Made by a program: the position numbers and the translations under genes | Source of the DNA: Streptomyces glomeratus | GTDB lineage: Bacteria; Actinomycetota; Actinomycetes; Streptomycetales; Streptomycetaceae | Length of the DNA stretch: 64,000 nt | NCBI RefSeq assembly: GCF_021462825.1 | Contig: NZ_JAKEEB010000003.1 | Span: 62,001-126,000 of the forward strand | Direction of reading: 5' to 3' | Shown here: positions 40,801 to 50,117 of the stretch, one piece after another | Layout: each line of letters opens with the position of its first letter | Numbering within the stretch: position 1 is the first letter of the stretch | Notes under the pieces: model-generated | What the model saw: the letters and a program-made list of their open reading frames with translations, nothing else | Told to the model about the DNA's origin: nothing | Database searches by the model: none

Positions 40801-41766
40801 ATGGGGACCCTGGGGCGGACGAGGCCCACGACGCTCGCCTGCGGCGAAGTCCGCACCTGCCTGCTGCCGACGTCCCAGGCGCTGGACCTCCGGGCGGCCG
40901 GCCATGTGCTGCGGCTGCGGGCCGACGAGCGCGTCCTCGCATCCGAACGCCCGAACCTGTACGCGCTGTCACCGGACACCCTCATGGGTGTCGACTGCGC
41001 GCTGCCCGCCTCCAACGGCGCCAAGGTACGCGCCGTCGGCACGGTCGTCGCCCGCGCGGCCCTCACCGAGGGCCGAGTCCTCCAGGCCGGCTCGTTTTTC
41101 CGCGTCCCGGACACGGGACCCGACCAACGGCAGCCCTGGGGCCACTACCTGGTGCGTCCCGGGGTGGTGGAACCCCTCGGGAAACTGCCCGCGCAGGCCG
41201 TGGCCGAGGGGCTCCTCAAGGGCGGCCGGCCCGGTGAGCTCGACCCCGGCCTGATCGCCGAGGGGCTCCTCACCAGGCTGCTGCGGCATCCGCTGCTGGA
41301 CCAGAAGAGCCCCTTCAAGAGCCGCCGCACCCGCCTGCGCTGGGTGGCCCTGCCCGTCCCGGACGGCCACGGCCCCTCGATCGACTTCACGGTCGCCGAA
41401 GACGACCTGCGCACGGTGCGGCTCGGGATCCCCGAAGGCACCGACCAGACCGCCGTCGTGCGCCTGTGCGAGGACCTCGCTCTGCACGACTGGCTGCTCA
41501 CCACGCTCGTGCGGATGCTCGACGGCAGTCGCTTCGGGTCGGCGGACGGGCCCATGGCCGTCCTGGCGCTGCGCCCCGCCGTCGACCACCTGATGCACCT
41601 GTGGATGCCCCGGGCACGGGTGGACCGGAAGCTGTCGGCGCTGTGGGAGGCGCTGGAAGAGCGGCCGGGCTTCAGCCGCCAGTGGCACACGCTGGTGCAG
41701 CGCATCCGGGACCAGATGGCCCTCCAGGCCATTCCGCTGCTGAGGGAGGCGCTGACCGCACGCTGA
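40801..41766 (+). CDS. SCO2521-family protein of unknown function
   Basis: A 321-residue soluble protein, starting 1 bp after the upstream stop. No known domain is recognised. The first third is beta-rich (LACGEVRTCLLPTSQALDL), the middle has the Lys/Arg-rich SPFKSRRTRLRWVALPVPDG, and the C-terminal third is helical. It completes the five-gene set and probably forms a complex with the other members; this is inferred from fixed gene order only. Confidence 0.75.
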   Translation: MGTLGRTRPTTLACGEVRTCLLPTSQALDLRAAGHVLRLRADERVLASERPNLYALSPDTLMGVDCALPASNGAKVRAVGTVVARAALTEGRVLQAGSFFRVPDTGPDQRQPWGHYLVRPGVVEPLGKLPAQAVAEGLLKGGRPGELDPGLIAEGLLTRLLRHPLLDQKSPFKSRRTRLRWVALPVPDGHGPSIDFTVAEDDLRTVRLGIPEGTDQTAVVRLCEDLALHDWLLTTLVRMLDGSRFGSADGPMAVLALRPAVDHLMHLWMPRARVDRKLSALWEALEERPGFSRQWHTLVQRIRDQMALQAIPLLREALTAR

Positions 41767-41826
41767 GCACGACGCGCGAGCCGCTCCGGCACGCGTTCCA
41801 GGAGGGTCCGACGGGGGAGGAAAGGA

Positions 41827-42843
41827 ATGACCGATACGCAAGGTTCCAGGGACACGGCACGGCCGGAGGGAATGCGCGTCCCACCGCTCCTGCTGAAAAC
41901 GCTCGTCACCGTCGTGGTGTCGATCATCGCCTACGTCCTCACCAATGCGCTCAACCAGAAGCAGGACGAGGTGTGGAAGCTGACGGTCTCCATCGTGATC
42001 GGTGGGTCCGCGCTGATCGTCCAGTACATGGTCGACTTCGAGCGGCGGCTGGAGGCGATGGAGAACGGACAGCGCACCCGTATCCGGGAGATGAGGGACA
42101 GCCTGGCGGAGCACCATCGTGAGGTGCACAGCCATCTCACCGACCACCGCCGGGAGATGACCGATCTGGTCGACGACCGTTTCGCCCGGATCAGCGAGGC
42201 CACCGAACTCTTCAGCCAGGTGGACCGCTCGGTACTGCGCTCGGACGGGGTGACCAAGCTGGCCCGCAGCGCCACCAAGGCGGGGCTGTTGAACAACGAG
42301 CTGGTGAAGACCTTCGCCAGCGAGGAGATCGACCGGCTCGCCCAGCTGCTGGAGAACCTGAGCAACAACATCGCCGACTGCCTCGGGGAGAACCAGGACT
42401 GGCTCATCGACCTCACCCGGTGCATCAAGACGTCCCTCGACGCCACCAGCACGTCCGTCGACCGTGATTTCTGGAACAGCGAGCCCGCGAGCCGCTATCT
42501 GGAGGCGCAGAGCGATGCGATCCTGCGCGGGGTGAAGATCAGGCGGCTGTTCATCGTCGACACCGAGCAACAGATCGACGACAAGCTGAAGGAGCTGTGC
42601 GAGAGCCAGCGCTCGCTGGGCATCGACGCCCGTGTGGTGGCCCTCTCCCAACTGCCCCACCGGGTGCAGCTGGGCACGCACAGCGACTTCATCATCTTCG
42701 ACAACGAACTCACCTACGAGATCGACCAGGACACCAAGAAGGTGAACGCCAAGACCACCCTCAACGCCAGGGCCGCCCTCGTCGAACACCGGATGAAGCG
42801 CTTCAACCGGCTGTGGGAGGCCACCCAGGACCTCTCCGGCTGA
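41827..42843 (+). CDS. Membrane-anchored coiled-coil protein, possible sixth member of the cluster
   Basis: A 338-residue protein. Two hydrophobic helices (about residues 20-40 and 52-68) are followed by a charged coiled coil (about 70-120, with HREVHSHLTDHRREMTDLVD). The globular C-terminal domain contains DFWNSEPASRYLEAQSDAILRG, KIRRLFIVD and SDFIIFDNELTYEID. This pattern resembles the C-terminal region of actinobacterial signalling proteins with phospholipase D-like or DUF6879-type folds, but I cannot assign it. GGGGAGGAAAGG lies just upstream of ATG 41827. It follows the SCO2521-type gene by 60 bp on the same strand and could tether the system to the membrane. Confidence 0.72.
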   Translation: MTDTQGSRDTARPEGMRVPPLLLKTLVTVVVSIIAYVLTNALNQKQDEVWKLTVSIVIGGSALIVQYMVDFERRLEAMENGQRTRIREMRDSLAEHHREVHSHLTDHRREMTDLVDDRFARISEATELFSQVDRSVLRSDGVTKLARSATKAGLLNNELVKTFASEEIDRLAQLLENLSNNIADCLGENQDWLIDLTRCIKTSLDATSTSVDRDFWNSEPASRYLEAQSDAILRGVKIRRLFIVDTEQQIDDKLKELCESQRSLGIDARVVALSQLPHRVQLGTHSDFIIFDNELTYEIDQDTKKVNAKTTLNARAALVEHRMKRFNRLWEATQDLSG

Positions 42844-42887
42844 GTACCGGGACCCGACGTCTCCTCGCGGGCCGGTGCGCGATCCCG

Positions 42888-43418
42888 TCAGCGGGCGGCG
42901 AAGTCGCGTTTCTCGGTCCGCGGGGAGTAGGTGAAACCACGGAACGGCCACTTCTGCCGGAGCCACTCGCTGACCAGCTCGTACAGCCGCTCGTCCAGCT
43001 CGGCGTGGTCCTCGCGCACCCAGGAGCGGACGACGGCGTGGCCCGGAGGGCCGGCCGGGTAGATGTAGACGCAGCCGATGACGTCCTCGTCGATCAGGAC
43101 GGAGTAGGTGAAGCCGATACGGTGCTCGAAGTCCTCGCGATGTCTGCGGAGATCCCGGAGATTGTCCTCGCGCGTCATCGGTACGGGCCAGCCGTACCGT
43201 TCGAATCCAGGAGTCCGCTGAATGTGATCCATGCTCGAGGTCCAGGCCCGGTAGTCACGGTCGTTGTGCTCGGGACCGAGCGGAACCAGATGGATTTTCC
43301 CGTCGCTGAAACCGCGGGGGATGGTGAAGTCAGCCGGTACGAATGGGGCGCCGGTTTCCCCGGTGCGCTCGTCCCCGTCGTGTGTGGTGTCCCTCGGCTC
43401 GTCTGCTGCCTGACTCAT
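42888..43418 (-). CDS. GNAT-type N-acetyltransferase
   Basis: A 176-residue protein of the GNAT fold. The core reads FTYSVLIDEDVIGCVYIYPAG and AVVRSWVREDHAELDERLYELVSEWL. The usual RxxGxG/A loop is weak (VREDHAELDERL), so cofactor binding is less certain than in typical members. The first 25 residues are charged and probably disordered. It is convergent with the membrane protein gene. Substrate unknown. Confidence 0.72.
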   Translation of the reverse strand: MSQAADEPRDTTHDGDERTGETGAPFVPADFTIPRGFSDGKIHLVPLGPEHNDRDYRAWTSSMDHIQRTPGFERYGWPVPMTREDNLRDLRRHREDFEHRIGFTYSVLIDEDVIGCVYIYPAGPPGHAVVRSWVREDHAELDERLYELVSEWLRQKWPFRGFTYSPRTEKRDFAAR

Positions 43419-43500
43419 CTGGTGTCCACTCAGTCCACGTCGACCTGGGCCTTCCTGAGCGCGCCACTATACCAACACCGAGGTCCAGGGTCTGCGCGGC

Positions 43501-44421
43501 TCATATGGGTTTCGCGGCCGCCCAGTCCCTGCTGAATTGACGAAGGGTCGACAGCAGGTAGACGGGCTCGATGGTCACCCCGCCCTGGGCGTCGGGACGC
43601 TCGATCGACAAATAGGCCCAGATGCCCTCGGGAGAGATGTTGTCCTGATGCCGTTCCCAGAGGATCGGTTCCTGACGATTGATCAACGGAAGATCCAGAT
43701 CGAGGATGCAGACGGAACTGACGAGCTCCTGGGAGAGCCAGCGGAACTGTAAATTCTCGCGTGACAGTTCGACGGGGACGCCGCTCTGGGTGACCAGCTC
43801 CCGGAATTTCTCGACCGACGGCCGCCAGGAGTCTCCCTCTCCGTAGAGCAGATACTGATAGGGGCGGCCCAGCTTCAAATTGTGGATCACGACGTCCATG
43901 AACGCGCCCGGTTCGCCGTCGTTGACATCGGACTGGAAGAGGCGCGTCATGATGCGCATGCGCCGCACGCAGGCCTCCATGCCGATCGCCTCCGCGTCGG
44001 TGACGAAGCCCACCGGGCCCTGGTTCTCGCCGTGCTCGATGAGCGCCCGGGCCGTTTCGTCGATCTTCGCCTGCAACCGGCGGCTGATGCGGGTGACCAT
44101 GTCCAGATGGCGCCCGCTCGCGTCACTGGCCTCCACGACCGCCCTGCGGATCTGCGCCCGCACACCGGCCGGGTCGTCCTCCGCCTGGGCCCGGGGGCGT
44201 TCACCGAACACCAGGTAGTCCAGGGTGACGTTGAAGTGGTCCGCGATACGCACGAGGGTCTCGAAGCTCGGCCTGATGCGGCCGTTGAGGTAGTGGGAGA
44301 TCGTCGCTTCATTGACGGCGAGTGCGCGCGCCAACTTTTTTCTGCCTCCGGATATCGCCGGGCTGTCGAGAAGGTCCCGCAGAACTGTCTCGAACTCAAC
44401 GCGGCGCTGGCTTGAGACCAT
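43501..44421 (-). CDS. XRE-type transcriptional regulator with TTA codon
   Basis: A 306-residue protein. Residues 1-75 carry an XRE/Cro helix-turn-helix (KKLARALAVNEATISHYLNGRIRPSFETLVRIADHFNVTLDYL). The remaining 230 residues form a sensor-like region of unknown fold (GENQGPVGFVTDAEAIGMEA, PYQYLLYGEGDSWRPSVEKFRELV). Leu224 is encoded by TTA (43752-43750 on this strand). GAGGT lies shortly before ATG 44421. It is divergent from the MppP-like operon and is its likely regulator. Confidence 0.85.
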   Translation of the reverse strand: MVSSQRRVEFETVLRDLLDSPAISGGRKKLARALAVNEATISHYLNGRIRPSFETLVRIADHFNVTLDYLVFGERPRAQAEDDPAGVRAQIRRAVVEASDASGRHLDMVTRISRRLQAKIDETARALIEHGENQGPVGFVTDAEAIGMEACVRRMRIMTRLFQSDVNDGEPGAFMDVVIHNLKLGRPYQYLLYGEGDSWRPSVEKFRELVTQSGVPVELSRENLQFRWLSQELVSSVCILDLDLPLINRQEPILWERHQDNISPEGIWAYLSIERPDAQGGVTIEPVYLLSTLRQFSRDWAAAKPI

Positions 44422-44504
44422 GATCGCTACCTCAGCGCAACCGGTGAACGCGACTTTCGCGTCGGGGAGTTACCCACACTATCGGCTGCTGCTCCGTCGG
44501 TACA

Positions 44505-44541
44505 GACGGCCGTTGCCGGCCGTCGTCGGGCTCCGTATCGT
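44505..44541 (+). promoter_or_regulatory. Promoter of the MppP-like operon with overlapping inverted repeat
   Basis: TTGCCG (44513-44518) and TATCGT (44536-44541), 17 bp apart, form a plausible sigma-70-type promoter with a start near 44548, followed by the very strong GGAGGAGGAG ribosome site. GACGGCCG (44505-44512) and CGGCCGTC (44517-44524) are a perfect inverted repeat with a TTGC spacer overlapping the -35, a natural operator for the divergent XRE regulator. Confidence 0.5.
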
Positions 44542-44566
44542 GGAAGCAACGGGAGGAGGAGCAGTC

Positions 44567-44854
44567 ATGACGGGGGCGAAGTTCCGGTTATTCAGGTCGC
44601 GGAACAGGTGGCGACGACTCATCGTCGGAACACTCGCTCTGGGCCTGTCCACGGTACTCATCGCACGGCCGGATCTCTGGCAATACCTCACCGCGGTGCT
44701 CGTGGTGCACGATCTGCTCATTCGGCTGCATGGAACCGAAAAGGACGACGACCGGCGGGATTCGGTGGCTGCTGAGAACGGAGGGGGAAATCATGACGCA
44801 ACCGGCCCGGCTGCCGAATCTGACGCAGTACGAGCGGATCGGATTCGATCGTGA
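44567..44854 (+). CDS. Small membrane protein with TTA codon, overlapping the MppP-like gene
   Basis: A 95-residue protein not resembling anything I know. A basic start (MTGAKFRLFRSRNRWRR) leads into one or two hydrophobic helices (LIVGTLALGLSTVLIA and LWQYLTAVLVVHDLLIRL), then a charged tail. Leu8 is TTA (44588-44590). GGAGGAGGAG lies 5 bases before ATG 44567, so translation is well supported. It overlaps the next gene by 62 bp, which suggests coupling. Confidence 0.65.
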   Translation: MTGAKFRLFRSRNRWRRLIVGTLALGLSTVLIARPDLWQYLTAVLVVHDLLIRLHGTEKDDDRRDSVAAENGGGNHDATGPAAESDAVRADRIRS

Positions 44855-45956
44855 ACTCAACCTGGCCGACGGTCACGCCCATCAAGGGGCGGACGCGGCA
44901 CAGCGGGAGATAACCCGGCGCCTGCCGGAACTCTATGAGACAAGCGAACTGAGCAGGCAGAAGGACGTCGAGAACACCTTCAAGGAGACGTTCTACCGGC
45001 TGGCCGGACAGCGATCCGCGATCCGCCACCCCCATGCGCTGCTCTGCTACTCGGCCTCCCTGTCGATCGACCTGGTCGGAGCCTTCCTGGGCGGCGCCGG
45101 CATCGGGGTTGCCCTGTTGCAGCCGTGCTTCGACAACCTCGCCACGCTCCTCATGCGCCGGGGCGTGGCGCTCACGCCCGTCGCCGAGAAGGCGGTGACC
45201 GGACCGGACCTCGCCCGGCTGCTCGCGGCCGCCGACGCGCCCGGGGCGCTCTTCCTCACCCTGCCGAACAACCCCACCGGTTTCACCCTGGGGCCCGCCG
45301 ACTTCCGGCGGGTCGCGGAGGTCTGCGCCGCCAACGGCACCCTACTGGTGGTCGACTGGACCTTCCGCTTCTTCGACCGGGGCGACGTCTGGGACCAGTA
45401 CGAGGTGCTGGATCGCTCCGGGGTGAGCTATCTGTGCATCGAGGACACCGGCAAGACCTGGCCCACCCTCGACCTCAAGTGCAGCATCCTCGCCACGAGC
45501 GCCGACCTCCACGACCGTCTCGCCGAACTCCACAACGACCTGCTGCTGAACGTCAGCCCGTTCGTCCTGACCCTGCTCACCGCCTATCTCGACGACTCGG
45601 TGCGGCGCGGCCTGGACGCCTCGGTACGCCAGGTGATCCGGACCAACCGCAGGGCCCTGCACCGGGCCCTGGACGGCTCCCTGCTGGTGCCCGGCGCAGC
45701 GGAGGCCACCATCAGCGTCGAATGGGTCCGCATCGCGGCCCCCTCGCCGGGCAGCCTGGAGGTCGTCGAACTGCTCGGGGACGTCGGTATAGCCGTGGTA
45801 CCCGGCGACCACTTCTACTGGCACGACCCGGATCTCGGCTCCCGCCACATCCGTATCGCCCTCGCGCGCGACCCCGTCATGTTCGCCAGGGCCTGCGCGC
45901 GTCTGCGCGGCGCGGTGGAGACACTTCCGCAGCTGTCGGGGACCCGCGCCCGATGA
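44793..45956 (+). CDS. PLP-dependent enzyme resembling the L-arginine oxidase MppP
   Basis: A 387-residue fold-type I PLP enzyme. The N-terminal NLTQYERIGFDRELNLADGHA and IEDTGKTWPTLDLK, with the PLP lysine at residue 221, closely recall MppP of enduracididine biosynthesis, whose catalytic lysine is also numbered 221. NNPTG and the C-terminal carboxylate Arg in RHIRIALARD are present. MppP-group enzymes (MppP, RohP, Ind4) use O2 to oxidise free L-arginine to hydroxy- or dehydro-ketoarginine products, rather than transaminating. ATG 44793 has GGAGGGGG about 7 bases upstream. The match to MppP is from memory of the sequence, so the exact reaction is an inference. Confidence 0.82.
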   Translation: MTQPARLPNLTQYERIGFDRELNLADGHAHQGADAAQREITRRLPELYETSELSRQKDVENTFKETFYRLAGQRSAIRHPHALLCYSASLSIDLVGAFLGGAGIGVALLQPCFDNLATLLMRRGVALTPVAEKAVTGPDLARLLAAADAPGALFLTLPNNPTGFTLGPADFRRVAEVCAANGTLLVVDWTFRFFDRGDVWDQYEVLDRSGVSYLCIEDTGKTWPTLDLKCSILATSADLHDRLAELHNDLLLNVSPFVLTLLTAYLDDSVRRGLDASVRQVIRTNRRALHRALDGSLLVPGAAEATISVEWVRIAAPSPGSLEVVELLGDVGIAVVPGDHFYWHDPDLGSRHIRIALARDPVMFARACARLRGAVETLPQLSGTRAR

Positions 45957-46891
45957 GGATCGTCTACCTCGACGAGCCGACCTATCTGCCCGAGTGGTGG
46001 CGGGCCAGATTCGCCAGGCTCGGGGACTTCGAGGTCTTCAACGACCGCCCCGATCCCGAGACCGCCCTGCACCGGCTGCGCGGGGCCGACCTCGCCGTGG
46101 TCGAGTGGACCCGTCTGACCGCCGGCCTGCTGAGCGGGATCACCCGGCTGCGCTATCTGACGCTGGTCACCACGAGCTTCGACACGGTGGACCTCGACGC
46201 CGCCGCCCGTGCCGGTCTCACCGTCGCGTACTGCCCGACGTACTCCCGGCAGGCCGTCGCCGAACACGTCTTCGCATCCCTGCTCGCCCTGATCCGCCGG
46301 CTGCCCGCCGCGGACCGGGCGGTGCGGGCCGGAGCCAGTCACCTGTACGGGCCGTTCCTCGGCCTCGAACTGCACGGCCGGACCCTCGGGCTGCTGGGTA
46401 CCGGCCGCATCGCCACGGCCGTCGCCCGGATCGCGGCCGGGTTCGGGATGGAGGTGATCGGCGCCAACCGTACGGGCAGGGCGGCGCCCGGGATCACCGT
46501 GCTGCCGCTTCAGGAGGTACTGCGCCGAAGCGACGTGCTGTCGCTGCACGTCCCCCTCGACGGGACCACACGCGGACTGGTGACCGCCGAGCGCCTCGAG
46601 ACCCTCAAGCCCTCCGCCGTCCTCGTCAACACCAGCCGCGGCGCGCTCCTCGACCAGGCCGCGCTCACCCGCATGCTCACCACCGGCAGGCTCGCGGGCG
46701 CCGCCCTGGACGACATCACCACCCAGGGCGCCGAACTGCTGCGCACGCTGGACAACGTGATCCTCACTCCGGGCACCGCCTGGTACACCGACACGGCCCG
46801 GTCGGCCAACCTCCAGGAGGTGTACGACAACCTCGTAAGTTACCTCGCCGGCCGCCCTCGCAACGTCCTCACCGGGCCGGGCCGACGGTAG
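45953..46891 (+). CDS. D-2-hydroxyacid dehydrogenase-family protein lacking the catalytic histidine
   Basis: A 312-residue NAD(P)-binding protein of the D-isomer-specific 2-hydroxyacid dehydrogenase family. The Rossmann glycine motif is LGLLGTGRIATAVARIA and the substrate Arg is Arg229 in NTSRGALLD. The usual catalytic Glu region (DVFEEEP) reads DDITTQG, and the catalytic His of TPHIA is replaced by Gly274 in TPGTAW. It cannot use the normal proton relay. It starts within the stop of the MppP-like gene (ATGA), so a coupled job such as imine or enamine reduction of its product is plausible. Confidence 0.82.
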   Translation: MRIVYLDEPTYLPEWWRARFARLGDFEVFNDRPDPETALHRLRGADLAVVEWTRLTAGLLSGITRLRYLTLVTTSFDTVDLDAAARAGLTVAYCPTYSRQAVAEHVFASLLALIRRLPAADRAVRAGASHLYGPFLGLELHGRTLGLLGTGRIATAVARIAAGFGMEVIGANRTGRAAPGITVLPLQEVLRRSDVLSLHVPLDGTTRGLVTAERLETLKPSAVLVNTSRGALLDQAALTRMLTTGRLAGAALDDITTQGAELLRTLDNVILTPGTAWYTDTARSANLQEVYDNLVSYLAGRPRNVLTGPGRR

Positions 46892-47220
46892 GAAAAATCG
46901 GGATCACTCGGATATCTCGGACAAGTTGCGGCCCCAAGTGACCGGCATGCAGCATGGCAACGTCAGCACAAAGCTGCTGTTCACGGCACGTGCGCCCATG
47001 CTCATGGCCCCCGGAACGCGTTTTCGGACAGGGCCGCGAGCGGCACGGGCACCCGTAGGACCGGCGTTGCGGTACCGGAAGCCGCACGGTCGTCAGAAGC
47101 GACCACTTCGCCGGAACGTCATGACCGAGTTCCCTGGAGCCGCATGTGTGGGACCGGCCTCAGACCGCCTTGGAACAGCAGCAGTAGAGGCGCGACAAGC
47201 GCGTCCATCAGGAGGTGTTA
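46892..47220. other. Intergenic region before the GTP cyclohydrolase gene
   Basis: A 329-bp stretch without a supportable gene. It is AT-richer at both ends. CTCGGA occurs twice around TAT at 46907-46921, and AGGAGG at 47210-47215 serves the next gene. I see no clear promoter, although one is expected here. Confidence 0.5.
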
Positions 47221-47757
47221 ATGAGCACCATCGCCGAGTGGCTCGAAGAGAACGTCACAACCGACAAACGCGCGCTCGACTGGTACCGGGAGCCGGAATG
47301 CGAACCCCGCATCGTCCGCGCCTACCGCCAACTGCTGAGCGGCTATGAGATCGACACGTCGACGATTCTCAAGACCACGGTCGAAGTCCAGGGCGAGCAC
47401 GCCGGTGTGGTCCGCGTGCACGACATCAACTACTACTCCATCTGCGCGCACCACTTCCTGCCGTTCTACGGAAAGGTGGCGATCTCCTACGTGCCCGGCA
47501 GCCGGATCCTGGGCCTGGGCAAGTTCCCCCGCCTGGTACAGGCGTTCAGCCGCAGGTTCCAGATCCAGGAGCACCTGGTGAAGGACATCGCCGAGGAGAT
47601 CATGTCCTCGGGTGGCGCCCGTGCGGCGCGCGTGGTCTCCACCGGCCGGCACATGTGCATGTGCAGCCGGGGCCCGTCCGACCAGACGTGCATCACCGAC
47701 ACCTCCTACGTCACGGGCGACAAGGAACTGTTCACCCGGTTCGGCCTCGACACATAA
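47221..47757 (+). CDS. folE: GTP cyclohydrolase I family protein (second FolE copy type)
   Basis: A 178-residue FolE-type enzyme. The zinc site is preserved as ICAHHFLPFYGK (Cys-x-x-His) and HMCMCSRG, with ILGLGKFPRLVQAFSRRFQIQEHL between. FolE opens GTP to dihydroneopterin triphosphate, the precursor of folate, pterins and 7-deazapurines. It is shorter at the N-terminus than housekeeping FolE and lies outside the usual ftsH-folE-folP-folB-folK operon, beside biosynthetic-looking genes. AGGAGG lies 5 bases before ATG 47221. The product may be a pterin cofactor or a 7-deazapurine precursor for the cluster. Confidence 0.88.
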   Translation: MSTIAEWLEENVTTDKRALDWYREPECEPRIVRAYRQLLSGYEIDTSTILKTTVEVQGEHAGVVRVHDINYYSICAHHFLPFYGKVAISYVPGSRILGLGKFPRLVQAFSRRFQIQEHLVKDIAEEIMSSGGARAARVVSTGRHMCMCSRGPSDQTCITDTSYVTGDKELFTRFGLDT

Positions 47758-47880
47758 GCGTCTGTCAGGTCCGACGTACCCCGCTTCCGCGGCGGACACC
47801 TCGTGTCTGCCGCGGGAAGCCGGGGTTCCCGTGCCGCCTCCCCACGTGGCTGACGGGACGTCGGAGATCCGGAGTGAGGC

Positions 47881-48510
47881 ATGAAACTGGACTTCCTTCC
47901 GCCCCACGCACTGCAGGACGGCGCCGTGCGCCACTACTGCCTGCGGTGCCGCAGCACCTCGGTGGAGTGGCGCACCGAGGGCGCCCGCCGCCATGCGGTG
48001 TGCCTCGCCTGCGGTCACGTCGCCGACCGGGCGCTGGTGCTGGATCCCGCGCTCCGATGGTGGACCGACGCCGAGGGCGAGTACTGGCACGAGACGGCGG
48101 GGGTGTTCGTCCAGGACGTCCGCGGCCGCCTCCTCTTCTTCGACCGTACGGCCTTCCCCTTCGGCCTGACGATCCCCGCCGGGCACGTCGAGCGCCACGA
48201 GGGCCCCGACGCGGCGGCGGCGCGCGAACTGTGGGAAGAGACCGGCATCACCGGCCGCAGGCTCGAACACCTGACCAGGACTCCCGTACCCGGTGACGGT
48301 TGCCGCCGTGGTGCCGACGCCCATCTGTGGCACGTGTACCGGACGGCCGACGCGGTGGACGCGGACCTGGCGGTGGAACTCGGCCCGGAGGGCACCACGG
48401 CTCTGTGGCTCACGCCCGACGAAGCGCTGCATCACCCGGTGACCTACGCCGTACGGCGCCTGCTCGGCGAGTGCCGGGATGCGCTGGTCTCCTCCCGAGC
48501 CGTCGGCTGA
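47881..48510 (+). CDS. Nudix hydrolase with N-terminal zinc ribbon
   Basis: A 209-residue protein. Residues 15-52 hold a two-CxxC zinc ribbon (YCLRCRSTSVEW and VCLACGHV). The Nudix box GHVERHEGPDAAAARELWEETGI is complete, from about residue 101. The family hydrolyses nucleoside diphosphate-linked compounds. Next to a GTP cyclohydrolase it could remove pyrophosphate from dihydroneopterin triphosphate, as NudB does, but this is only inferred from position. GGAGTGAGG precedes ATG 47881. Confidence 0.87.
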   Translation: MKLDFLPPHALQDGAVRHYCLRCRSTSVEWRTEGARRHAVCLACGHVADRALVLDPALRWWTDAEGEYWHETAGVFVQDVRGRLLFFDRTAFPFGLTIPAGHVERHEGPDAAAARELWEETGITGRRLEHLTRTPVPGDGCRRGADAHLWHVYRTADAVDADLAVELGPEGTTALWLTPDEALHHPVTYAVRRLLGECRDALVSSRAVG

Positions 48511-48515
48511 TTCCG

Positions 48516-50117
48516 ATGGTTCACTGCGAAGAGAGGACACGCACGGATACCGACGTGCCGATGCGGGCCGGGCGACGGGAATGGCTGGGGCTCGCGGTCC
48601 TCGCACTGCCCACCATGCTCATCGGTCTGGACATGAGCGTGCTGCATCTGGCCGCGCCCGCCCTCAGCGAGCGACTGCACCCAAGCGGCACGCAACTGCT
48701 CTGGATCGTCGACATCTACGGCTTCATGGTGGCCGGTTTCCTCGCCACCATGGGGACTCTCGGGGACCGGATCGGCCGCCGCAGACTCCTCCTGACGGGT
48801 GCTGCCGCCTTCGCGGCGGCCTCTTTGCTCGCCGCCTGTTCGTCCAGCGCGGCGATGCTCATCACGTCGCGCGCGTTGCTCGGCGTCGCGGGGGCGACAC
48901 TGATGCCGTCGACCCTCTCCCTGATCAGCAACATGTTCCGTGACCCCGGACAGCGGCGGCTGGCGGTCGCGGCGTGGATGACCAACTTCAGCATCGGCGC
49001 GATGATCGGCCCGCTGATCGGCGGGCTGCTCCTGGAACACTTCTGGTTCGGCTCGGTGTTCCTGCTGGGCGTGCCGGTGGGCATCGTCCTGCTGATCGCC
49101 GGTCCGCTGCTGCTGCCCGAATACCGCGATCCGGGGGCCGGCCGACTGGACCCGGTCAGCGTCGCGCTGTCCGTCACAACGGTGCTGCCGGTGGTCTACG
49201 GGTTCAAGGAGACCGCCCAGCACGGCGTCCATACGCTGCCGCTGCTGAGCGTGGCCGCCGGGCTCTGCCTGGGTGCCGTCTTCGTCCGCAGGCAGTTGAC
49301 GCTCCCCGACCCCATGCTCGACCTTCGGCTCTTCACCCGCCCGGCCTTCGGGGTGGCGCTGGGCGGGCTGACCCTCGGGCTCTTCGCGGTGACCGGGACG
49401 CAGTTCCTGCTCCTGCAGTACTTCCAGCTCGTGTTGGGGCTCTCCCCGTCCGTCGCCGGGCTGTGGTCGCTGCCCGCGGTGGGGGCGGGTGTCGTGAGTG
49501 CGCTGCTGGCCCCTGCCGTGGCCGGCCGCACGGGCCCGCTCCAGGTCATGGCGGGCGGTTTCCTCCTCGCCGTACCGGGACTGGTGCTGCTCACCCTGGC
49601 CGGTACGCAGTCCGGGCCGTTCCTCGCCGTCGTGGGTTTCGCCGTCACCTCCTTCGGTATCCAGGCGGCCCTCGCCCTCACCAACGACGTGATCATCAGC
49701 AGTGCCCCACCCGAACGCGCCGGGAACGCCTCGGGCATCGGGGAGACCGGCGCGAACCTGGGTGAGGCGCTGGGTGTGGCCGTCGCCGGATCCGTCGCCG
49801 CCGCCGTGTACCGCGCGAAGCTGGACGGCGGGTCCCTCCCGGACGGCCTGGGGCCCGATCTCGCCGATGCCGCCCGTGCGACCCTCGGCGGGGCCACCGA
49901 GGTCGCCGGCCGACTGCCCGCACGGCTCGGCGGTGAACTCCTCGCTCTGGCCCGGACGGCGTTCACGGACGGAGTGCACATCGCGGCGCTGCTCAACATC
50001 GGCATCCTGCTGACGCTCACCGCGGCGCACGTGGCACTCCTGCGCCGCGACACGGCACACCGCGACTCCACGGACCCCGCCCCGCAGCCGCGGGAGACGC
50101 TCCCGGACCGCCGCTAG
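48516..50117 (+). CDS. DHA2-family MFS exporter (14 membrane segments)
   Basis: A 533-residue or shorter drug:H+ antiporter. Typical motifs are LDMSVLHLAAPALSERL in helix 1 and MGTLGDRIGRRRLLLTG in the loop after helix 2, and GATLMPSTLSLISNMFRD (motif C region). Fourteen hydrophobic segments can be counted, as in QacA-type pumps. The start is uncertain: ATG 48516, GTG 48555 and ATG 48561 are in frame, and none is ideally placed after a ribosome site. At the end of the putative biosynthetic locus it may export the product. Confidence 0.87.
   Translation: MVHCEERTRTDTDVPMRAGRREWLGLAVLALPTMLIGLDMSVLHLAAPALSERLHPSGTQLLWIVDIYGFMVAGFLATMGTLGDRIGRRRLLLTGAAAFAAASLLAACSSSAAMLITSRALLGVAGATLMPSTLSLISNMFRDPGQRRLAVAAWMTNFSIGAMIGPLIGGLLLEHFWFGSVFLLGVPVGIVLLIAGPLLLPEYRDPGAGRLDPVSVALSVTTVLPVVYGFKETAQHGVHTLPLLSVAAGLCLGAVFVRRQLTLPDPMLDLRLFTRPAFGVALGGLTLGLFAVTGTQFLLLQYFQLVLGLSPSVAGLWSLPAVGAGVVSALLAPAVAGRTGPLQVMAGGFLLAVPGLVLLTLAGTQSGPFLAVVGFAVTSFGIQAALALTNDVIISSAPPERAGNASGIGETGANLGEALGVAVAGSVAAAVYRAKLDGGSLPDGLGPDLADAARATLGGATEVAGRLPARLGGELLALARTAFTDGVHIAALLNIGILLTLTAAHVALLRRDTAHRDSTDPAPQPRETLPDRR

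Follow-up and report, generated by a model that had tools for sequence, protein, structure and literature searches.

Genes at the locus

The window analysed here is a stretch of 64,000 nucleotides from Streptomyces glomeratus (genome G000, contig C3:62001-126000; GC content 70.8%), and our subject is a gene for a predicted arginine oxidase dependent on pyridoxal 5'-phosphate (PLP), together with its neighbours. An earlier note on this DNA had named the PLP enzyme, a dehydrogenase, a GTP cyclohydrolase I (FolE), a Nudix hydrolase, a DHA2 exporter and a divergent XRE regulator. All of these are present, and a further gene, at 42888-43418, belongs with the XRE, PLP enzyme and dehydrogenase genes although it lies outside the range covered by that note. 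Ten window proteins, spanning positions 40801-50117, were run through family and profile scans. The features that concern us are, in window positions:

42888..43418, minus strand: likely GNAT-superfamily acyltransferase, on the same strand as the XRE gene (module A)
43501..44421, minus strand: XRE-type regulator, with a helix-turn-helix domain (HTH_3, E 6.8e-10) and a C-terminal region of about 230 residues (module A)
44567..44854, plus strand: TM95, a 95-residue protein with a single hydrophobic stretch, whose gene opens the oxidase operon (module A)
44793..45956, plus strand: predicted PLP-dependent arginine oxidase of the Bsp/Ind4-type branch (module A)
45953..46891, plus strand: likely Bsp5-type acyclic imino-acid reductase of the D-2-hydroxyacid dehydrogenase superfamily, matching 6p2i (module A)
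46905..46982, plus strand: short cupin-gene relic, a 26-residue match to the cupin that precedes FolE in genomes G026, G064 and G247 (module B)
47221..47757, plus strand: specialised GTP cyclohydrolase I paralogue, FolE (PF01227, E 1.3e-42; module B)
47881..48510, plus strand: Nudix hydrolase with N-terminal Cys pairs (PF00293, E 1.5e-17; module B)
about 48516..50117 (the start could be 48564), plus strand: DHA2-type exporter of the major facilitator superfamily (MFS; PF07690, E 1.1e-42; module B)

Module A (42888-46891) consists of a GNAT-XRE arm that diverges from a TM95-oxidase-dehydrogenase arm across a shared intergenic region of 145 bp, and module B (47221-50117) is the FolE-Nudix-exporter unit. 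The gap of 329 bp between the dehydrogenase and FolE genes contains the cupin relic. A SCO2521-family gene lies at 40801, and neighbouring genes were read by eye as recO, uppS and Fur. A promoter and terminator scan returned nothing. The ratio of nonsynonymous to synonymous substitution rates (dN/dS) is 0.16-0.31 for the genes of module A compared with those of G322, another genome of the genus (synonymous divergence near 1), and 0.09-0.33 for the genes of module B compared with those of G243 and G285. Modules A and B appear to be separately inherited neighbouring gene sets, and our reading, to which we give a probability of about 0.7, is that they are independent: module A would convert L-arginine via a 2-imino acid into a D-amino acid that is then N-acylated, while module B would be an unrelated GTP-derived unit.

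The predicted arginine oxidase, its probable reductase and their subclade

In the PDB, the PLP enzyme matches 6c3a (which we take to be RohP), 5dj1 and 5bk7 (both MppP by PDB record) and 7n79 (presumably Plu4) with E-values from 4e-80 to 7e-58; the first aminotransferase outside this group follows at 2e-7. These matches are therefore more than chance, and by its sequence the protein is a member of the MppP/RohP/Ind4 arginine-oxidase family and not an ordinary aminotransferase, as the earlier note had proposed. The two motifs on which that proposal drew are indeed found: with the start placed at 44793, the Lys of EDTGK is residue 221, and the segment ELNLADGHA aligns with ELNIADGHA of 5dj1, both the Lys and this N-terminal segment presumably having functional roles in the family. 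The equivalog model for MppP, TIGR04462, gives 197.8 bits, under its curated cut-off of 450, so the enzyme is a family member but not an MppP.

The closest solved relative of the dehydrogenase is 6p2i (E 3.4e-88, 306 residues aligned without a gap, 45.4% identity), followed by 5tx7 (4.8e-46). The PDB listing names 6p2i a glycerate dehydrogenase; we take it to be Bsp5 with D-arginine. The TPH of 5tx7 corresponds to TPGxAWY in the window protein and in 6p2i alike, and neither of these has the acid that comes before the Pro of DVLSQEP in 5tx7; in D-2-hydroxyacid dehydrogenases, the two positions are presumably those of the catalytic His and Glu. The start of the dehydrogenase gene overlaps the stop of the PLP gene in a shared ATGA. 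The gene product is likely a Bsp5-type acyclic imino-acid reductase translationally coupled to the oxidase. The available part of PMC11876095 describes PunC5/BsP5 as acyclic imino acid reductases.

Linkage to a reductase follows the phylogeny of the oxidase. A scan of genome contigs with exact peptide patterns, which retrieves near relatives only, yielded at least 14 further PLP loci at 51-56% identity to the window enzyme. The reductase gene directly follows the PLP gene at all 16 loci of this branch (the window, G322 and 14 loci from the scan) and was found within 1.5 kb at none of 28 RohP-side loci (L003-L030). A tree that included MppP, RohP and Ind4-type loci (47 rows) sets RohP and the 28 RohP-side loci apart at 100/99, with the window in the reductase-linked branch. 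A reduced tree of 24 of the 47 rows, from which MppP, Plu4 and 21 near-duplicates were dropped, keeps 10 linked loci out of 16 (window counted) and 13 RohP-side loci out of 28; in it, enzymes with and without a reductase neighbour part at 100/100, a split recovered in every one of the 200 bootstrap trees (100%). Of 392 same-genus genomes, one, G322, holds a near relative (61%), and the others, RohP-side relatives among them, reach at most 46% identity. Ten of 296 genomes matched in a class-wide search, in which only the window's own enzyme exceeded 43% and no further cassette appeared; at one of the eight new loci (L106), a dehydrogenase match was seen that is weak and partial (35%, E 1e-12).

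Several known systems share this core. The Bsp4/Bsp5 (PunC5) pairs of Bacillus and Paenibacillus, which convert L-arginine into D-arginine, couple the same kinds of PLP oxidase and D-2-hydroxyacid-dehydrogenase-type reductase; relative to them, the window subclade adds the GNAT, the XRE regulator and a small hydrophobic protein. To the Ind4/Ind5-type loci L032 and L045, the window PLP enzyme is 53% and the reductase 46-49% identical. In the reductase alignment, the row for L034 was trimmed short at its N terminus, and no identities were taken from it. The indolmycin cluster carries genes for a tryptophanyl-tRNA synthetase, a methyltransferase and a PaaK-like protein beside the pair; L045 likewise has tryptophanyl-tRNA synthetase, ketoarginine-methyltransferase-like and PaaK-like genes by family search, and L032 looks similar by eye. 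In contrast, no tryptophanyl-tRNA synthetase, methyltransferase or ligase/PaaK-like protein is among the ten window proteins scanned, and the window falls outside the L032/L045 pair in the tree. RohP (azomycin) and MppP (enduracididine) belong to the same PLP family, with the EDTGK Lys and a similar N-terminal segment, but the window enzyme is separate from the RohP side in both trees. The earlier view that none of these pathways fits the gene set therefore stands, whereas its statement that their partner genes are absent does not, since the gene next to the oxidase encodes a reductase of the Bsp5/Ind5 type. A mildiomycin-type reading was also set aside: in the part of the description available, milM is partnered by milN, a putative dihydrodipicolinate-synthase-type gene and not a reductase.

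Some related pairs have other companions. In Priestia flexa (L035), the pair is followed by a PaaK-like gene and two ATP-grasp genes (family check) and, by eye, a transporter; these ligase-type genes have no counterpart among the ten window proteins scanned. The gene after the pair in an Alicyclobacillus (L033) resembles, by eye, the first of these. Two Paenibacillus loci have a Mur-ligase-like gene upstream of the pair, family-checked in L042 and read by eye in L037, the latter also with a family-checked PGA_cap gene downstream. Plasmid searches returned one dehydrogenase relative (32%), one PLP relative (34%) and one FolE relative (76%). The PLP relative (L109) lies on pTLV-1 of Bartonella kosoyi, typed as mobilizable, and adjoins genes annotated as NAD(P)-dependent oxidoreductase, phenylacetate-CoA ligase family, ATP-grasp and MATE.

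The GNAT gene occurs at three of the 16 linked loci, namely the window, G322 and Paractinoplanes tereljensis (L036), which group in the PLP tree at 82/76 (window and G322 at 95/92). In G322, a GNAT gene (57% identical) occupies the same place beside an XRE gene (76%, same arrangement). In P. tereljensis, a GNAT homologue (58%) continues the reductase frame with no intervening stop; this in-frame arrangement in an Actinoplanes suggests an N-acyl-D-arginine-type product. The XRE regulator was found among 295 same-genus genomes only in the window's own at 1e-20, G322 evidently lying outside that sample. TM95, whose ATG is preceded by GGAGGAGGAG, overlaps the start of the PLP gene; its core RPxLWQYLTAxLxVHDL is kept in G322, and profile scans gave it no family match. 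Because the neighbours of the G322 cassette differ from those of the window (UbiX- and UbiD-like genes, by eye), the set from GNAT through XRE, TM95 and PLP enzyme to dehydrogenase seems to move as one unit.

As a background to the open frame in L036, the GNAT family occurs in 30 of 296 same-class genomes; of its 33 other places, 29 were read (about 1.5 kb on each side where the contig allowed), and none of the 29 had a PLP, reductase or XRE homologue. Alone, the window protein matched Acetyltransf_1 at E 0.086. We aligned it with 13 of the 24 homologues found; at a loose limit of E <= 5, 10 of these 14 members match Acetyltransf_3 in Pfam (best 2.9e-5) and four match Acetyltransf_1. Foldseek listed 50 matches, 40 of them named acetyltransferases, and three matches reach 0.001, from a weak model (mean predicted local distance difference test score, 59). 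Searching the PDB with the family profile gave two chance-level matches (E 0.57 and 0.72), and an NCBIfam scan gave nothing. Among the titles listed in searches of open-licence papers, none concerned a GNAT-linked oxidase-reductase pair. What is new is the GNAT-linked, XRE-accompanied subclade, the core pair being of an already known kind.

The FolE-Nudix-exporter unit

The window FolE is 85.6% identical to 9ujf. It reads CAHH and LGLGK at the positions of CEHH and LGLSK in canonical relatives, and keeps the Cys/His/Cys positions that we take to be the metal ligands; its dN/dS is 0.09-0.10 against G285 and G243. The earlier note had called it a second FolE; the genome holds three FolE-like genes. 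The unit's FolE gene occurs in six of 295 same-genus genomes, its own included, at seven loci. Nudix and then MFS genes follow it in five other complete units, the exception being a second FolE copy in G064, which has a 45% identical Nudix gene and no matching MFS gene. QepA, LfrA and EmrB-type models match the exporter under their cut-offs.

Module B occurs without module A in G026, G064, G243, G247 and G285. None of the six other FolE loci has the PLP or dehydrogenase gene, and the fetched DNA of the 15 other oxidase-reductase loci holds neither FolE nor Nudix. In G285, the unit has the neighbours that it has in the window, homologues of the SCO2521-family gene and of the gene at 41827, and the distance between is 730 bp instead of 4378 bp; it is the same chromosomal site, with B and without A.

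Elsewhere the unit has other company. In G026, G064 and G247 it is flanked by genes for a cupin, a protein like SAICAR (phosphoribosylaminoimidazole-succinocarboxamide) synthetase, a short-chain dehydrogenase/reductase (SDR) and a Streptomyces antibiotic regulatory protein (SARP). Remains of a cupin gene lie ahead of FolE in the window, in G243 and in G285, with respective scores of 61, 57 and 100 against maxima of 56, 54 and 54 in 200 shuffles each. The matches in the window and G243 are short (26 and 18 residues) and barely above the shuffles, the window score of 61 comparing with 35.4 +/- 5.3 in 200 dinucleotide shuffles. No relic of the SAICAR-synthetase-like, SDR or SARP genes near the window unit exceeded 60 shuffles, apart from a borderline SARP match in a 44-bp stretch (score 36, maximum 34) that we did not count, and the SAICAR-synthetase-like gene is absent from the window's genome.

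Module B is probably the maintained core of a larger cluster of cupin, SAICAR-synthetase-like, SDR and SARP genes, with no link to arginine. Because FolE, Nudix and MFS genes are all under constraint (dN/dS 0.09-0.33), the reduced unit is probably still in use, and its three products would act together: FolE would open GTP, the Nudix hydrolase would remove phosphates from the product and the exporter would carry the result out of the cell, perhaps a GTP-derived pterin or pyrimidine. The full clusters of G064, G026 and G247 (L055, L057 and L058, respectively) could belong to an undescribed GTP-derived pathway. Their SDR and SAICAR-synthetase-like genes recall penB and penC of the pentostatin/coformycin clusters, PenB being an SDR and PenC a SAICAR-synthase homologue in the available part of PMC12648386; unlike penB-penC, they adjoin FolE, Nudix and cupin genes. 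As far as the available descriptions go (PMC7109123, PMC7674941), the 8-azaguanine (ptn/8-azg) cluster resembles module B in combining a divergent GTP cyclohydrolase I with an exporter. An 8-azaguanine-type reading of FolE was rejected, the Nudix and MFS genes not being those of that cluster (NO synthase, nucleosidase, PtnB). The plasmid-borne FolE relative (L108, p3211-2 of Streptomyces sp. 3211) sits in a cupin-VOC-FolE-Nudix series (FolE 76%, Nudix 52%) among insertion sequences.

Proposed chemistry and its alternatives

In module A, L-arginine would be oxidised with O2 by the PLP enzyme, yielding a 2-imino acid, either 2-iminoarginine or, as in Ind4, its 4,5-dehydro form. The coupled reductase would trap this unstable acyclic imine with NAD(P)H before it hydrolyses, giving a D-amino acid, so that the likely product of the pair is D-arginine or dehydro-D-arginine. 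The GNAT would then N-acylate it, and the XRE regulator would control both arms from the shared intergenic region. Module A as a whole would lead from L-arginine to N-acyl-D-arginine, or N-acyl-4,5-dehydro-D-arginine, in three enzymatic steps (oxidation with O2, capture of the imine, transfer of an acyl group), with reductase and acyltransferase fused in one genus and a dedicated XRE regulator in Streptomyces; we advance this full sequence tentatively, at somewhat short of even odds.

The earlier note had seen here one undescribed pathway combining arginine oxidation with GTP cyclohydrolase chemistry, in which oxidised arginine would be joined to the FolE product, trimmed by the Nudix hydrolase and exported. 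The adjacency of all these genes on one strand, each intact and under constraint, speaks for it, but the modules recur separately, in five other genomes for B and at 15 other oxidase-reductase loci for A, the cupin relic identifies B as what is left of another cluster and the G285 site holds B without A. Because of this separate occurrence we reject the joint pathway, which we regard as highly improbable; the proximity of FolE to the arginine module is most likely accidental. Within module A, the pair might simply supply D-arginine or dehydro-D-arginine for a product built elsewhere, with the GNAT a passenger. The 13 loci without GNAT and the ligase-type genes near some of them (PaaK-like and ATP-grasp in L035, Mur-ligase-like in L042, PGA_cap in L037) fit this view, which we nevertheless hold to be unlikely, if the strongest of the alternatives: in two genomes whose flanking genes differ, the GNAT has stayed beside XRE, and in an Actinoplanes it lies in frame with the reductase. 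Less probable still is a hydroxylase of the RohP/MppP type whose 2-keto product the dehydrogenase would reduce to a D-2-hydroxy acid such as 2,4-dihydroxy-5-guanidinovalerate. The family membership of the PLP enzyme and the superfamily of the reductase are compatible with it, and MppP and RohP yield a hydroxylated keto acid according to the available part of PMC7497351; against it, the trees place the window oxidase outside the RohP side, and the reductase, whose alignment with 6p2i has no gap, is without the catalytic His and Glu of hydroxyacid dehydrogenases.

Several observations nonetheless weigh against our reading of two independent modules, with an N-acylated product for module A. Modules A and B adjoin and could have come into joint use in this strain, and L045 also has a DHA2-type exporter (38%) near its oxidase-reductase pair. 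The GNAT link comes from three loci whose grouping has modest support, the gene being absent from the fetched DNA of the other 13, and the reading frame seen as a fusion in P. tereljensis could comprise two genes, since it contains an ATG, although the ribosome-binding site there is weak and close. The GNAT assignment is likely, but the profile matches behind it are weak and the structural model is of low confidence. In the full tree, MppP (branch length 5.9) is the neighbour of the window, while Plu4 (8.7) branches at the root; we take the position of MppP as a long-branch artefact, without regarding it as shown to be one. Finally, a two-electron outcome (D-arginine) and a four-electron one (dehydro-D-arginine or a hydroxylated product) are not separable by sequence.

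Setting the FolE unit apart prevents the pursuit of a wrong pathway and points to FolE-Nudix-MFS with cupin, SAICAR-synthetase-like and SDR genes as another target. An oxidase paired with an imino acid reductase is an unusual means of turning L- into D-amino acids and is of interest for biocatalysis; in this branch, a third enzyme linked to the pair by in-frame fusion predicts the next chemical step and makes the product testable.

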